Assembly (NCBI RefSeq): GCF_000685395.1
Contig: NZ_AVSQ01000014.1
Location: forward strand, 1-43,235
Length of the DNA: 43,235 nucleotides
From: Candidatus Nitrosotenuis chungbukensis
GTDB taxonomy: Archaea; Thermoproteota; Nitrososphaeria; Nitrososphaerales; Nitrosopumilaceae
Direction of reading: 5' to 3'
Shown here: positions 2,083-39,146 of the stretch, piece after piece
Layout: the number at the start of each line of letters is the position of its first letter
Numbering within the stretch: the stretch's first letter is position 1
Notes under the pieces: model-generated
Told to the model about the DNA's origin: nothing
What the model saw: only the letters and a program-made list of their open reading frames with translations
Databases searched by the model: none
Made by a program: the position numbers and the translations under genes

Positions 2083-3831
2083 ATGCGCATTAGAATTGGT
2101 GACATACATTTCATGGGACAACTGCTTCCAGTAGCTGTAATCCTAATCATATCTGCAATAGGCATGTTTCTCATAGCTTGGTATGGGGATATTCAAATTA
2201 ATCAAGAAATACAAAATATTGAACGTGTAAAAAATGACAAACTTCGTCTCCTAACTGACATGCTGGATAGCAATTTAAAAAATGCAGTGAATCTGATTGA
2301 AGTTACTAGGAATTTACCAATAGTGAAAGATGTTTCGCATTCAGAGTTCATCAGTGAAACCACAAGAGGAATACCTGAGGACAAGGATCTAAAGAAAAGA
2401 ATTCTTGCACGTGATATTCTGGACAAGTATGCCTATTTTGAATTCATTACATTCAACATGCCAAACGGCGACTTTTACATGATGGAGCCGTATTCGTCAC
2501 AACTGAATTTACCATATCTGAATTTTGCTAATAGGGACTGGTACAAGGGAGTCATGAAAACTAATGATACGTACGTAAGTGAAGTCTACATATCTGGAAC
2601 TCTTGGTCATAACGTAGTGGCAGTTAGAACGCCAGTCTTTGATGATGGATCTATGGTTGGGATCTGGGGTGGCTCTCTAAGCTTAACAAATCTGGGATCT
2701 AATCTTAAGAAGCTAGAACTGGGTAAAAACGAGCAAGTTTTTTTTATTGATCAGAATTGGAACGTAATCGCAGATTCAAGCGAGTCTGTAACGCAGAGTG
2801 GTCTGGCGCATTACCCGTATTCTGAATTTATTGAAAGTATTCATGACATGGAAACTAAAACATCTGTAACAACAGTCAGTGGCACCAAAATGCATTTTAT
2901 TTATGGTTCTGTAGACGTACCTCACAACAAATGGCTGATAGTGATACAACAACCGTCTTCTGATGTATTTCACACAGTTGACGTGATACGCGCGCAAATA
3001 TACTTGGATATTGTGTTATTGACAATTGTAATGTCTGCAAGCTACGTTATTTTTAGAATGCTTCACTCCAAAAAAATTCTTGTCGCAAAAATTGCCGCAG
3101 CATACAATGAAACGATGTCCCAGAGAGACAAACTCATTAAGATTGATAAAATAAAGGAAGAGTTTTCTGCAATGATAACACATGAGCTAAAAACCCCACT
3201 AGTCCCAATTATCGGATATTGTAAGATGTTAAGGAATCAAATGATGGGACAAATAAATGAGGAACAGATGGACTCTATTCTGACAATCGAAAAAAATGCA
3301 AAGCGACTTGAAACATTAATCACTGATATCATGGATGTACGAAAACTGGATATGAACAAGATGAAATTCACTATGGAAGATCTTTCTATTGCTGATTTTT
3401 TTGTAAATCTTGAATCAAGCTATAAGCAAGTGTTGGCAGAACAAGGCAAAGAATTCATCACAGACATTCCGATGACTGATCATACCATACAAACTGACAA
3501 AATACGCCTGCGTCAAGTTTTTGATAATCTTATCTCAAATGCAATAAAGTTTACTCCTGATGAAAATGGCAAGATCACGGTAGGCTGGAAGATAGAAGGC
3601 AACAAGATTATTTTCTATATACGTGATAACGGAATTGGAATTTCACTCGAATCCCAACAAAATCTCTTTCAAAAATTTTATCAGGTTGATACTTCGGCGA
3701 GAAGAAAGATAAGTGGTACCGGTCTTGGCCTTGCCATTTCAAAGGGAATAGTAGAAAAACTTGGCGGACGAATTTGGGTTGAAAGTGATGGAAAAACTGG
3801 AACTGTTTTTTATGTTGAATTTAATATCTAG
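2083..3831 (+). CDS. dCache-type membrane sensor histidine kinase
   Basis: A 582-residue kinase with TM helix 1 (about 12-32), an extracytoplasmic dCache-like sensor (about 35-300, containing the Cache-style NRDWYKGV segment), TM helix 2 (about 306-326), then a cytoplasmic kinase core. The H-box THELKTPLVPI puts the phospho-acceptor at H367. The N-box (DNLISNAIKF, about 480-490), G1 (DNGIGI, about 515), F-box and G2 (GTGLGL, about 545) are all present, so it should be an active ATP-dependent autokinase sensing a small extracellular ligand. The start is the first ATG after a TATA-like box near 2048. A receiver gene and a DHp-metalloprotease gene follow on the same strand. The metalloprotease carries the same HELKTPLVPI decapeptide, which suggests that the three act together. 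The ligand is unknown. Confidence 0.93.
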   Translation: MRIRIGDIHFMGQLLPVAVILIISAIGMFLIAWYGDIQINQEIQNIERVKNDKLRLLTDMLDSNLKNAVNLIEVTRNLPIVKDVSHSEFISETTRGIPEDKDLKKRILARDILDKYAYFEFITFNMPNGDFYMMEPYSSQLNLPYLNFANRDWYKGVMKTNDTYVSEVYISGTLGHNVVAVRTPVFDDGSMVGIWGGSLSLTNLGSNLKKLELGKNEQVFFIDQNWNVIADSSESVTQSGLAHYPYSEFIESIHDMETKTSVTTVSGTKMHFIYGSVDVPHNKWLIVIQQPSSDVFHTVDVIRAQIYLDIVLLTIVMSASYVIFRMLHSKKILVAKIAAAYNETMSQRDKLIKIDKIKEEFSAMITHELKTPLVPIIGYCKMLRNQMMGQINEEQMDSILTIEKNAKRLETLITDIMDVRKLDMNKMKFTMEDLSIADFFVNLESSYKQVLAEQGKEFITDIPMTDHTIQTDKIRLRQVFDNLISNAIKFTPDENGKITVGWKIEGNKIIFYIRDNGIGISLESQQNLFQKFYQVDTSARRKISGTGLGLAISKGIVEKLGGRIWVESDGKTGTVFYVEFNI

Positions 3832-3949
3832 CAAACATTTCCTGCGTACAATCATACCATCGTATGTGATTTCTGCAAGAGTTCATATTATCATTGACGA
3901 TTCTATTTCGTACGAAAATCTTATTATCTTCTAAACATGGAAATATACA

Positions 3950-4312
3950 ATGAAAATATTGCTGATTGACGACAATCAGGATATTACCACAATGTTTGCA
4001 AAATATTTCAAATTAAAGGGACACGACATCCACGTTTCCAACGGTGGGCAAAACGGTCTACAAATGATCGAAAATAGCCCCTTTGATGCCATTTTACTTG
4101 ACTTGGCAATGCCTGATTTTTCAGGACATGACATTATCGACTATCTGCACAAAAATAACAAAGTGGATCATAAAATAATAATTTCACTTACGGCATCTTC
4201 CGTCTCAGATGACGACAAAGCCTATTTGATAGAAAGGGGCGTTCATTCGGTGCTAAGAAAGCCAATCGATCCGGACGAACTGCTCAACTATCTGATGAGA
4301 ATCAAATCATAA
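3950..4312 (+). CDS. Single-domain CheY-like response regulator receiver
   Basis: A 120-residue stand-alone receiver domain. The acidic pair D7/D8, phospho-acceptor D51 (LLDLAMPD), T81 and K104 (RKPI) are all present, so it should accept phosphate from a histidine kinase. It has no output domain and must act by protein-protein contact or as a phosphate relay or sink. It lies 118 bp after the sensor kinase, with its own TATA-like cttattatc about 26 nt upstream of the ATG. It ends 4 bp before the DHp-metalloprotease gene, so the last two are probably co-transcribed. The natural partners are the kinase at 2083-3831 and possibly the DHp domain of the protease. Confidence 0.92.
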   Translation: MKILLIDDNQDITTMFAKYFKLKGHDIHVSNGGQNGLQMIENSPFDAILLDLAMPDFSGHDIIDYLHKNNKVDHKIIISLTASSVSDDDKAYLIERGVHSVLRKPIDPDELLNYLMRIKS

Positions 4313-4316
4313 CCAA

Positions 4317-5714
4317 TTGGATCCAAATCATCTGATTCGCGAATTTCAACAGATAGCGTTAATTCAGAAAAAATTAGATGGTATGATTAATAGTGATATT
4401 TCAAAAGACGAGCAAATTGCACAAATAATTGATCACATAGAATCAACGAACAATTTTTCAACAAAAACCGTAGAAAATATTCTATCAAATAAAATCGTGC
4501 TGACGGAAAACTCGTTAAACATAATTCATCACGAGCTAAAAACCCCACTCGTTCCAATAAGGACATACGCCGATATGCTATTTCAAGGAAAATTTGGGCA
4601 TTTAACTCCTGAACAAAAGAACAAAGTAGAGATGATCAGCGCAAACGCAAAACAATTACAACAAAAAATTGAAATCTTACTTGATAAAAAAATACATGGA
4701 TCTATCAATAATGTGGATGACGATAAGACAAAATCGTCCATAAAAGAGATGGAGCAACAAAACATGCTACTGGAAAAGATCAATCAACTACTTGTTGAAA
4801 AGAGCGATCGAGATGATTCTGAAATTCAAAAATTGCAAAATAAGGCAGTGGAATCAGAACGGCAAAAAAATGAGATCTTACAGGAACGATTGATATTGAA
4901 TAAAACAGTACATTTTGAAGAACAAAAAAACTTTCAACTTGGTAGAAAAAACATCATCATTATTGCAATTTTTGCCTTAATTGTTGCTGTTAGCTTTACA
5001 TCATATTCATTATATGTTGTAGATTTGGTAGGAAAACAATATCAAGTTTCAAATCTGGGAAAAATAAATAGTGGCGGCTATTTGATACAAAACCTAAGGG
5101 GTGATACTATTGACACTTGGCTGTCTTGGAGACTTGTGCCTGGCTCTACATTACATGTCGGAATAACAAATGCCGCTAAATATCCTGACAAGATTCCATT
5201 GATCAAGGAGGTTGTGCTTTCTGAAGATTCTGTCGATATCGATGACTCGTTGCTTCACAAAGGACTAAGGGGATCAATTTCAACATACTACGTTGGTTGG
5301 AAGGGTGCACTTGAACACATATCTGCACAATCCACTAAATTTACCATTCCATCAAACCTTGATGTAATAGATACACAAGCAGGAGAGGGGGATATTACAA
5401 TAATTTTGACTAACGAAAGAAACGGTGACGGATATTCCGGATTTACCAAATCAATAGCTGACGACTCTCAGAACCAGATCTTAAAATCAACAATCACAAT
5501 CTATGAAGTAGACAAACTAAATGATGAGCAATTCAAAACCGTACTTAGACATGAGTTTGGTCATGCGTTGGGACTTGCACATTCCACCGCACCTGAGGAT
5601 CTGATGGCACCAACAATTCAAACAGCTTATCCATACATCTCTGATTGTGATGTGGATACCTTAGTAAAACTGTATGACGGCGGAATGAATAGCCAAGTTA
5701 CTTGTGAAAAATAA
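4317..5714 (+). CDS. Membrane protein fusing a HisKA/DHp domain to a matrixin-like zinc metalloprotease
   Basis: A 465-residue protein of unusual build. Residues about 60-125 form a histidine-kinase DHp helix pair with acceptor H72 in HELKTPLVPI, but no N, G1, F or G2 boxes follow, so it cannot bind ATP as a kinase. A charged coiled coil (about 140-208) leads to one TM helix (about 212-240). The outer part ends in HEFGHALGLAH (zinc ligands H412, H416, H422; catalytic E413) with a downstream Met-turn candidate at M430 (EDLMAP), the metzincin/matrixin signature. Two C-terminal cysteines could form a disulfide. The predicted topology is DHp inside, protease outside. The start is TTG at 4317, because stops lie just upstream in frame; the first ATG (4383) would remove 22 residues. 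It may be a phospho-controlled or kinase-paired surface protease; this function is inference. Confidence 0.85.
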   Translation: MDPNHLIREFQQIALIQKKLDGMINSDISKDEQIAQIIDHIESTNNFSTKTVENILSNKIVLTENSLNIIHHELKTPLVPIRTYADMLFQGKFGHLTPEQKNKVEMISANAKQLQQKIEILLDKKIHGSINNVDDDKTKSSIKEMEQQNMLLEKINQLLVEKSDRDDSEIQKLQNKAVESERQKNEILQERLILNKTVHFEEQKNFQLGRKNIIIIAIFALIVAVSFTSYSLYVVDLVGKQYQVSNLGKINSGGYLIQNLRGDTIDTWLSWRLVPGSTLHVGITNAAKYPDKIPLIKEVVLSEDSVDIDDSLLHKGLRGSISTYYVGWKGALEHISAQSTKFTIPSNLDVIDTQAGEGDITIILTNERNGDGYSGFTKSIADDSQNQILKSTITIYEVDKLNDEQFKTVLRHEFGHALGLAHSTAPEDLMAPTIQTAYPYISDCDVDTLVKLYDGGMNSQVTCEK

Positions 5715-37351: not shown

Positions 37352-38338
37352 ATGTATGAATTAGCAATAGCAGCAATAATCGCAGCATTATTTTTTGATT
37401 TTATCAACGGGTTCCACGACGCGGCAAACTCAATTGCAACAGTTGTTGGAACTAGAGTGCTAAAACCGCTCCAGGCTGTGACCCTTGCGGCCATTGCAAA
37501 TTTCATTGGTCCTTTTCTTTTTGGAGTTGCAGTTGCAACGACCATCGGCAAGGGAATAATCAATCCTGACTTTGTGACAATTCACATCATCATAGGAGCA
37601 CTTTCTGGCGCAATTGCGTGGAATCTAATCACGTGGTACTGGGGATTTCCTTCTTCAAGCAGTCACGCCTTGATTGGCGGCATCATTGGAGCGGGCATCG
37701 CAGGAGCTGGAACGCACGCAATAATTTTTGGCGGACTTGAAAAAGTCGTAACTGGCATAATCATCTCGCCCGTGGTCGGACTAGTTGGAGCATTTTTACT
37801 TGCAACTATAATCATTACTGTCTTTGCAAACAAAAAGCCGGGCAAGGTGAACTCTGCTTTTGGCAAATTGCAGCTTGTATCGTCTACCTATTTCTCATTA
37901 ACACATGGCGCAAACGACGGCCAAAAAACAATGGGAATAATTGCGCTGATTTTACTAACGGAAGGCGTCATTACGGAATTTGCTGTGCCGTTTTACGTGA
38001 TATTGATGGCAGCGCTTGCAATTAGCCTTGGCACGTTCTTTGGCGGATGGCGAATTGTAAAAACCATGGCAGTAAAAATAACACAGCTAAAACCGTACCA
38101 GGGATTTGCTGCGGAGACTGGGGGTGCTACAATTTTGGCAGTCTTGGCGCACGCTGGAATTCCAGCAAGCACGACTCATGCGATTTCGGGCGCTATCATG
38201 GGCGCCGGCGCAGTAAGGCGTATGTCTGCAGTCAGGTGGGGAATTGGCAAAAGAATAATGTGGGCCTGGATAGTCACGATTCCAGCCAGTGCCGGAGTTT
38301 CATATTTGACAATGCTTTTGATCAAACTTTTTGTGTGA
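37352..38338 (+). CDS. pit: PiT-family inorganic phosphate permease
   Basis: 328 residues with about ten TM helices and the two inverted PiT repeats: FINGFHDAANSIATVVGTR in the first, THGANDGQKTMGIIALI in the second, plus FPSSSSHALIGG and IPASTTHAISGAIMGAG. It imports phosphate, probably as a metal-phosphate or with a cation gradient. Short for the family, lacking the long central loop of E. coli PitA, as is usual in archaea. It is translated with the DUF47 gene upstream. Confidence 0.95.
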   Translation: MYELAIAAIIAALFFDFINGFHDAANSIATVVGTRVLKPLQAVTLAAIANFIGPFLFGVAVATTIGKGIINPDFVTIHIIIGALSGAIAWNLITWYWGFPSSSSHALIGGIIGAGIAGAGTHAIIFGGLEKVVTGIIISPVVGLVGAFLLATIIITVFANKKPGKVNSAFGKLQLVSSTYFSLTHGANDGQKTMGIIALILLTEGVITEFAVPFYVILMAALAISLGTFFGGWRIVKTMAVKITQLKPYQGFAAETGGATILAVLAHAGIPASTTHAISGAIMGAGAVRRMSAVRWGIGKRIMWAWIVTIPASAGVSYLTMLLIKLFV

Positions 38339-38393
38339 GTTATTTTCAAATTTCGAGCTAACACATAAAATAAAACAAGTCCCATGTCTAACC

Positions 38394-39146
38394 GTGGCAA
38401 CAAAAGAACCTAACTTTGATCTTGCCCTTACTCATCTGCGCAATCGGCAAAACATGGCTGCATACAACCAGTTTACAATCATCGCGGAATCCATAAAAAA
38501 GACTGATTTAATCAAGGCTGCCCTATCGTATGTGCTTGCAGCAGAATGTAAAATACGCCAAAACAAAGGCGCAGAAGATGAGATAACTGAGGCGGGAAAA
38601 CTCTTTTTCAATTTTGCAAAAAAAGAAAATAATTACAGTGTGAAAAACGCATACCTGTGCGCAGCAAAATGCTTCCTCCGTGCAGGAAAGTATGATGACG
38701 CAAAAGCGGCATTTGAAAAATCAAAAGCCATCAAGAGGAACACTGCTGTAGAAGACCTAAGGCCAGTAATAATAATAGATGACAGCAAGTCAATCGTATT
38801 AAAAATTGAAAATTATCTTGAAAAGCTTGGATACAAAAATACGCACTCGTTTTCTACTGGAAAAGATGCACTAACCGGATGCAAAAAGCTGCTCAAGACA
38901 AACCCGATAATCCTCCTTGATATGGGTCTGCCTGATGTAAACGGGGACGTGGTGGCAAACAAGATTTTGTCGGAAAAACCGGACGCGCAAATCGTACTCA
39001 TAACTGCCGATGAAAAAACAACAAAACGCGTAAAGGACACGATCAGTGTGGGGGTGCTTGCCTTTATTCAAAAGCCTTTTACAATCAAGGAACTCAAAGA
39101 CGCGCTAGATGTTGCCGAATCCGAATACTCGCTATCAAAGAAGTAA
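38394..39146 (+). CDS. Helical-repeat (TPR-like) protein with C-terminal receiver domain
   Basis: 250 residues. Residues 1-120 form TPR/SNAP-like helical pairs (ALSYVLAAECKIRQNKGAED, AYLCAAKCFLRAGKYDDAKA). Residues 123-245 are a response-regulator receiver: D129/D130, phospho-acceptor D176 (LLDMGLPDVNG), T204 and K227 (IQKPF). The output would be the N-terminal interaction module, so it probably signals by protein contact. The start is GTG 38394, with a TATA-like cataaaat centred 27 nt upstream. No kinase is adjacent. It overlaps the convergent Lrp gene by 12 bp. Confidence 0.85.
   Translation: MATKEPNFDLALTHLRNRQNMAAYNQFTIIAESIKKTDLIKAALSYVLAAECKIRQNKGAEDEITEAGKLFFNFAKKENNYSVKNAYLCAAKCFLRAGKYDDAKAAFEKSKAIKRNTAVEDLRPVIIIDDSKSIVLKIENYLEKLGYKNTHSFSTGKDALTGCKKLLKTNPIILLDMGLPDVNGDVVANKILSEKPDAQIVLITADEKTTKRVKDTISVGVLAFIQKPFTIKELKDALDVAESEYSLSKK

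Follow-up and report, generated by a model that had tools for sequence, protein, structure and literature searches.

A conserved two-component locus in Nitrosopumilaceae with a membrane-anchored matrixin as its predicted output

We analyzed a stretch of 43,235 nucleotides (the window) from the archaeon Candidatus Nitrosotenuis chungbukensis (contig NZ_AVSQ01000014.1). Three genes on the same strand of the window encode a sensor histidine kinase, a stand-alone receiver (REC) and a fusion protein, in which a histidine-kinase DHp domain is joined through a coiled coil and one transmembrane (TM) helix to a matrixin-type metalloprotease. We favor the reading, with a probability of roughly 0.6, that these genes form a dedicated two-component pathway with the membrane-anchored surface metalloprotease as its direct output, controlled post-translationally from the inside out. 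The evidence comes from the domains of the three proteins, their conservation and dedicated co-inheritance, a family-wide linkage of REC and kinase genes to proteases, and the exchange of sensors and outputs around them.

Architecture and conservation of the fusion protein

The fusion protein matches HisKA (PF00512) at residues 68-123 with 34.6 bits (cut-off 26.9) and Peptidase_M10 (PF00413) at residues 352-453 with 41.1 bits (cut-off 24). A Pfam search of its 465 residues gave no match to HATPase_c; hence the protein is not a histidine kinase. Its DHp domain continues into the coil and the TM helix with no degenerate ATPase-like domain there, and the coil-TM-protease segment occupies the position of the ATPase domain in a kinase. 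An initial annotation, made from the sequence alone, had described the trio of genes and the matrixin carrying a DHp without an ATP-binding domain; open reading frames (ORFs) and profile searches bear this out. They add that residues 1-60 (fN) are a separate conserved helical module and that the gene begins with TTG, 4 bases past the REC stop codon.

The two preceding genes have the parts expected of a two-component pair. The kinase gene gives matches above cut-off to dCache_1, HisKA and HATPase_c, and has both a DHp and a catalytic ATP-binding (CA) domain; in an active-site census the acidic pocket, Asp, Thr and Lys of the REC are all intact. The decapeptide HELKTPLVPI, already noticed as identical in kinase and fusion, occurs in one further kinase. 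Since it is present in just 3 of the 20 HisKA proteins of the host genome, it can be ruled out as a generic motif.

The fold of the fusion protein was examined in an AlphaFold model, computed as a monomer with 53 homologues (mean confidence score pLDDT 83). The DHp forms a helical hairpin (residues 64-89 and 98-128), one long helix (136-238) spans coil and TM segment, and the ectodomain is well predicted. The best Foldseek matches of the ectodomain are the matrix metalloproteinases (MMPs) MMP-7 and MMP-13 and the bacterial karilysin; for MMP-7 and MMP-13, the top matches, the probability is 1.00 and the TM-score by target about 0.6. The protein thus has the HExxHxxGxxH motif with a Met-turn (Met430 at +8), the family profile and the catalytic fold of M10 peptidases. 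The predicted topology places the N-terminus inside and the C-terminus outside the cell. Two cysteines, C444 and C463, are invariant in the ectodomain alignment columns and would be compatible with an external disulfide.

Next we surveyed 250 genomes of the family, 99 of which have protease relatives. About 120 loci were fetched and annotated with profiles built in this analysis. The protease was the criterion for choosing loci, and controls were drawn from those stretches and the own genome; ORF calling was mechanical, some relatives are incomplete metagenome-assembled genomes, and the whole analysis is sequence-based. The survey returned 17 intact fusions, the window's and 16 others, in five genera. 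The orthologues keep a single ORF across a range from 91% identity (a copy on SCVO01000025) to 45%. A scan of genome contigs returned just two loci. The order kinase-REC-fusion is found in the window and in L037, L039, L040, L041, L042, L099, L100, L101, L103, L104 and L106; together with two loci in which the three genes are rearranged (L105, L044) this gives 14. Conserved loci also occur in which the fusion is split or broken (L038/L107, L102, L045).

The ratio of nonsynonymous to synonymous substitutions (dN/dS) in the fusion is 0.12 overall, below 0.4 in every segment and low in two independent pairs, which indicates that all parts, the DHp included, are under purifying selection. The position of H72 holds His in 16 of 17 fusions and the following Glu is present in 17 of 17. 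The full zinc motif is found in 127 of 133 related proteases, 125 of these 127 with Met at +8. The 16 other intact fusions, the low dN/dS in each segment and the wide range of identities exclude an artefact; intact orthologues down to 45% identity rule out an assembly or frameshift joint as the origin of the fusion. The initial annotation had proposed to follow the fusion and its gene order in related genomes: both are conserved, linkage to kinase and REC genes was found, and neither a lack of conservation, nor an artefactual join, nor a loss of HExxH or H72, the outcomes it had named as contrary, came about. In a search of 300 genomes of the phylum, the matches outside the family were only weak and cover just part of the ectodomain. 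A phage origin was rejected, as there was no PHROG match.

Co-inheritance and linkage to two-component genes

Phylogenetic analysis indicated that kinase, REC and DHp were inherited together. The fused and split DHps form one group apart from their partner kinases (SH-aLRT 89), the kinase cores beside fusions, including that of the window, form another (SH-aLRT 91), and the RECs beside fusions form one clade (SH-aLRT 91); these trees have few columns and single forks are soft, so that the overall pattern carries the weight. Of 20 further own-genome receivers that were sampled, not one falls inside the M10-linked receiver clade. The protease ectodomains of L105 and L106 lie in DHp-less clades (support 99/93 and 100/99), while their kinase, REC and DHp belong to the usual fusion-locus lineages; therefore the cytoplasmic unit moved in one piece. 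The distances of fN plus DHp correlate with those of REC (r=0.71) and kinase core (r=0.60); for the ectodomain the values are 0.40 and 0.22. The sensors of the partner kinases vary from dCache (window) to PAS (L037, L103, L106) and CHASE3 (L104). Hence the input can be exchanged, in contrast to the core pathway.

The separate clade of the fused DHps and the co-conservation of the REC between the two genes also disfavor an earlier proposal, namely that the fused DHp forms a heterodimer with the DHp of the kinase.

The linkage extends beyond the fusions. At 80% identity the proteases fall into 75 clusters. In 36 of these a REC gene directly adjoins the protease gene on the same strand, compared to 6 of 213 control genes of the same stretches (Fisher p ~7e-19); in 28 of the 75 a kinase gene is at most two genes away, compared to 6 of 213 controls. 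Most TM-matrixin relatives are devoid of a DHp, including ones that adjoin a REC, and the fusion represents one variant within a broader system. The idea of a two-component-controlled protease is thus strongly supported by comparative genomics as far as the linkage is concerned. The DHp, however, is not essential to the design, because most relatives do without it, many of them beside RECs, and because partner proteins also contain the N-terminal helix and a coil motif.

These data bear on the view that the three genes are mere operon neighbors. Kinase and REC would then regulate genes or motility, the protease would be a co-expressed housekeeping enzyme and the DHp relic a dimerisation stub. 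In favor of this view, kinases and receivers are common in the host genome (20 HisKA and 23 REC proteins). Such a chance neighborhood nevertheless appears improbable in view of the 36/75 against 6/213 linkage, the retained His, the purifying selection on the DHp, and the co-inheritance of kinase, REC and DHp lineages across ectodomain swaps.

Other arrangements of the same parts were found in the family. Genes for a DHp alone (71-164 residues, without an ATPase) neighbor the protease gene in L044, L065, L102, L107, L114, L115, L116, L118 and L149; in L234 and L236 a trio of kinase, REC and DHp-only gene occurs with no protease within the stretch read. In two genera (L069, L142) a dCache ectodomain is joined straight to the TM-protease, and neither a kinase nor a REC nor a DHp adjoins it; the dCache of L069 shares 34% identity with its counterpart in the window kinase. 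The classical fusion argument suggests that this sensor class and the protease act together.

The fN module and the coil carry a recurring helical tag. Its first copy is REFQQIALI in fN (residues 8-16), the second KEMEQQNMLL in the coil (residues 143-152, positions 4743-4772). A profile of fN gave 21 matches in the 250 genomes, of which 20 are fusions or DHp genes of fusion loci. The remaining match (L199) is the third gene after a kinase-REC pair; it combines the first ~25 fN residues with a winged helix (HTH_45), and its REC is 55% identical to that of the window. Two further genomes (L202, L205) have the same arrangement, and there is no DHp on the winged-helix protein in any of the three. 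The occurrence of this kinase-REC lineage with an fN-winged-helix gene implies that the pathway can be wired to a DNA-binding output via the fN helix, which makes the N-terminal helix of fN a candidate docking element. The operons of L199:3024-5487, L202 and L205 themselves probably have a transcriptional output.

The coil motif, [KR]E[LIVM][EQ]Q...LL ('RELEQEKILL'), is present in protease coils. Nine of 13 DHp-only proteins and six cytosolic kinases also have it, against one of the 982 remaining ORFs at these loci. It was spotted post hoc within a coiled coil and its recurrence may partly reflect coil composition; the better evidence is a profile search of the 250 genomes, in which the best matches lay almost only at the loci described here, the exceptions having been inspected. 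One receiver (L238:4778-5179), from a genome that also carries the L106 fusion, has an fN-like tag (EDTHKTREAQQIKLLADGI) apparently inserted after the strand of the phospho-Asp.

We tentatively extend the picture to a modular system of the Nitrosopumilaceae, a view to which we give slightly less than even odds. Many two-component pathways would have surface matrixins as their direct output at the post-translational level, and the shared tag (RELEQEKILL / RExQQIxLL) would join kinases, lone receivers, DHp-only phosphotransferases, proteases and winged-helix regulators, with exchangeable sensors and outputs and a conserved core.

Proposed mechanism and its alternatives

From this pattern we infer phosphotransfer and its direction, coupling across the membrane, proteolysis and the existence of a substrate. 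An extracellular cue would be sensed through the dCache domain of the kinase, which would autophosphorylate and then phosphorylate the lone REC. The phosphorylated REC (REC~P) would engage the cytoplasmic half of the protease, that is the fN helix and the DHp hairpin, and hand its phosphate to H72, dock there, or both. A change in the DHp/coil dimer could then travel via the TM helix to the matrixin ectodomain and alter its activity, its oligomeric state or its access to substrate, so that surface proteins would be cut without new transcription. Phosphotransfer to H72 and transmembrane gating, both already part of the initial annotation, are thus predicted steps; for a true transfer to H72 as opposed to docking only the chances seem to us evenly balanced.

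Several points weigh against this dedicated pathway. The genes may lie together because they are co-regulated, or the REC may have other targets. Around one half of the protease clusters lack an adjoining REC, and one protease subfamily is paired with a weakly CBS-like protein in its place. The structural model is a monomer with low confidence between TM helix and ectodomain (residues 237-261). No propeptide or cysteine switch was seen in the ectodomain, and any gating would have to work without a latent form. Finally, H72 is replaced by Asp in the L044 fusion, although an intact gene for a DHp alone is present at that locus, and two DHp-only neighbors have Asp at the same position.

The last point agrees with a scheme in which REC~P only binds the fN helix, the coil or both. 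The DHp would then be a dimeriser or a phosphatase that resets REC~P, and H72 would be no relay site. Proteases without a DHp adjoin RECs, the fN-winged-helix proteins of three genomes follow a kinase-REC pair without a DHp, and the coil motif is common to protease coils and partner proteins; a precedent also exists in EpsW~P, which acts on EpsZ (PMC12802240). Docking alone can suffice, as the DHp-less relatives and the fN-winged-helix proteins argue. Conversely, the His and its catalytic neighbors, kept in 16 of 17 fusions, argue for phosphate reaching H72, and more than one lineage of the DHp tree contains DHp-only partners; together these indicate use of the His. We consider pure docking a less probable explanation, albeit the most serious competitor of the favored pathway.

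The signal could also run from outside to inside. The ectodomain would sense a ligand by binding or cutting it, and the DHp would drain or feed phosphate of the REC, an ordinary hub. The DHp is indeed a signalling domain, and some multi-TM relatives without the third zinc ligand could be binding-only. However, the protease lacks a CA domain with which phosphorylation could begin, its zinc site is kept in 127 of 133 relatives, and a separate dCache sensor ectodomain exists, which in two genomes lies in cis with the protease. Taken together, this makes an inward signal very unlikely.

The single steps of the inside-out pathway have precedents. Spo0B and ChpT are soluble relays that keep a degenerate ATPase-like domain; in the fusion a coil, TM helix and protease stand in that position. 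The likeness lies in the DHp hairpin, the conserved His, the lack of kinase activity and the expected work with a receiver; ChpT is described as a DHp-type histidine phosphotransferase (PMC3433190). Archaeal proteins with HisKA and no HATPase, for which phospho-acceptor, transfer or phosphatase roles have been proposed (PMC5847659), share the His and the missing ATPase; they differ in that PAS/GAF sensors form their N-termini, and most of them come from Archaeoglobi and Methanomicrobia (PMC5847659). The main text of that census does not contain the words 'protease' or 'peptidase'. In EpsW-EpsZ a phosphorylated single-domain regulator activates a membrane enzyme (PMC12802240), as the lone REC would do post-translationally here; the enzyme is a different one, its catalysis is cytoplasmic and the target has no DHp.

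Inside-out control of periplasmic proteolysis is known from LapD-LapG (PMC3032545, PMC3032553), where a cytoplasmic signal likewise passes through a membrane protein to a protease that acts on cell-surface proteins. LapD, however, binds cyclic di-GMP (c-di-GMP) and sequesters a separate cysteine protease, whereas in the fusion the protease itself is the TM protein, a zinc matrixin, with kinase, REC and DHp as input. Pfam found no LapD/LapG-type domains (c-di-GMP receptor, cysteine protease) in the three genes and the resemblance is functional only. With MMPs and karilysin the ectodomain shares zinc motif, Met-turn and catalytic fold; unlike them the fusion has no recognised propeptide, and it has an anchor of one TM helix and a signalling domain inside. 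Passages of PMC6697440 on sponge-associated Thaumarchaeota name a 'matrixin/adamalysin' (arCOG04994), possibly of the same family, for possible degradation of host matrix, and draw no two-component link.

That paper is the one we found to name these archaeal matrixins. Within an open-access library we found no description of a kinase-matrixin design, of direct control of an extracellular protease as a two-component output, or of the single steps in combination. Stand-alone receivers make up about 75% of the response regulators of Thaumarchaeota (PMC5847659). Such receivers are largely without known outputs, and one dedicated lineage of them now gains a concrete candidate target. If the prediction is true, abundant ammonia-oxidising archaea would remodel their cell surface by regulated shedding, on which we found no functional work.

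Features of the locus and neighboring genes

Table 1. Coordinates of the genes and domains of the locus in the window.
Feature	Positions	Strand	Description
Sensor histidine kinase	2083..3831	+	582 aa, ATG; TM, dCache (residues 61-270), TM, DHp/HisKA (358-423), HATPase (472-580); Pfam
Stand-alone receiver (REC)	3950..4312	+	120 aa, ATG; Response_reg alone
DHp-coiled coil-TM-matrixin fusion protein	4317..5714	+	465 aa, TTG start
fN module	4317..4496	+	residues 1-60, helical; own profile (A4)
DHp domain	4497..4700	+	residues 61-128; HisKA above cut-off; helical hairpin in model
H72, candidate phospho-acceptor	4530-4532	+	in HELKTP
Coiled coil	4722..4949	+	residues 136-211; structure model
Single TM helix	4950..5018	+	residues 212-234; hydropathy TM at 222; long helix 136-238
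Matrixin (M10) ectodomain	5079..5711	+	residues 255-465; PF00413 above cut-off; Foldseek to MMPs
Zinc-binding motif	5550..5582	+	HEFGHALGLAH, H412-H422
Met-turn	5604-5606	+	Met430

Other genes of note lie near the matrixin genes. The conserved locus of the subfamily with the weakly CBS-like partner of ~300 residues (L054:5992-6963 and orthologues) has no REC and adjoins a carbamoyltransferase-family gene (OTCace domains). An Ig-like protein of ~780 residues with a C-terminal TM anchor (L054:7015-9357, L170:1732-4053; 31% identity end to end) adjoins two different matrixin subfamilies and is possibly a first substrate candidate. Matrixins with multi-TM N-termini (L060, L062, L063, L073) form divergent pairs next to large surface proteins; one partner of these pairs has lost the third zinc ligand and the Met-turn, giving an active/inactive pair.

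Upstream of the kinase, the window encodes an HYR-repeat protein with C-terminal RTX calcium-binding repeats (positions 2-1771), which is cut off by the window start. This surface protein was not seen at other fusion loci, whose neighbors were only partly annotated. Farther downstream (38331-39146) a gene encodes a weak TPR-like segment with a receiver domain C-terminal to it; response regulators do not usually have this order.

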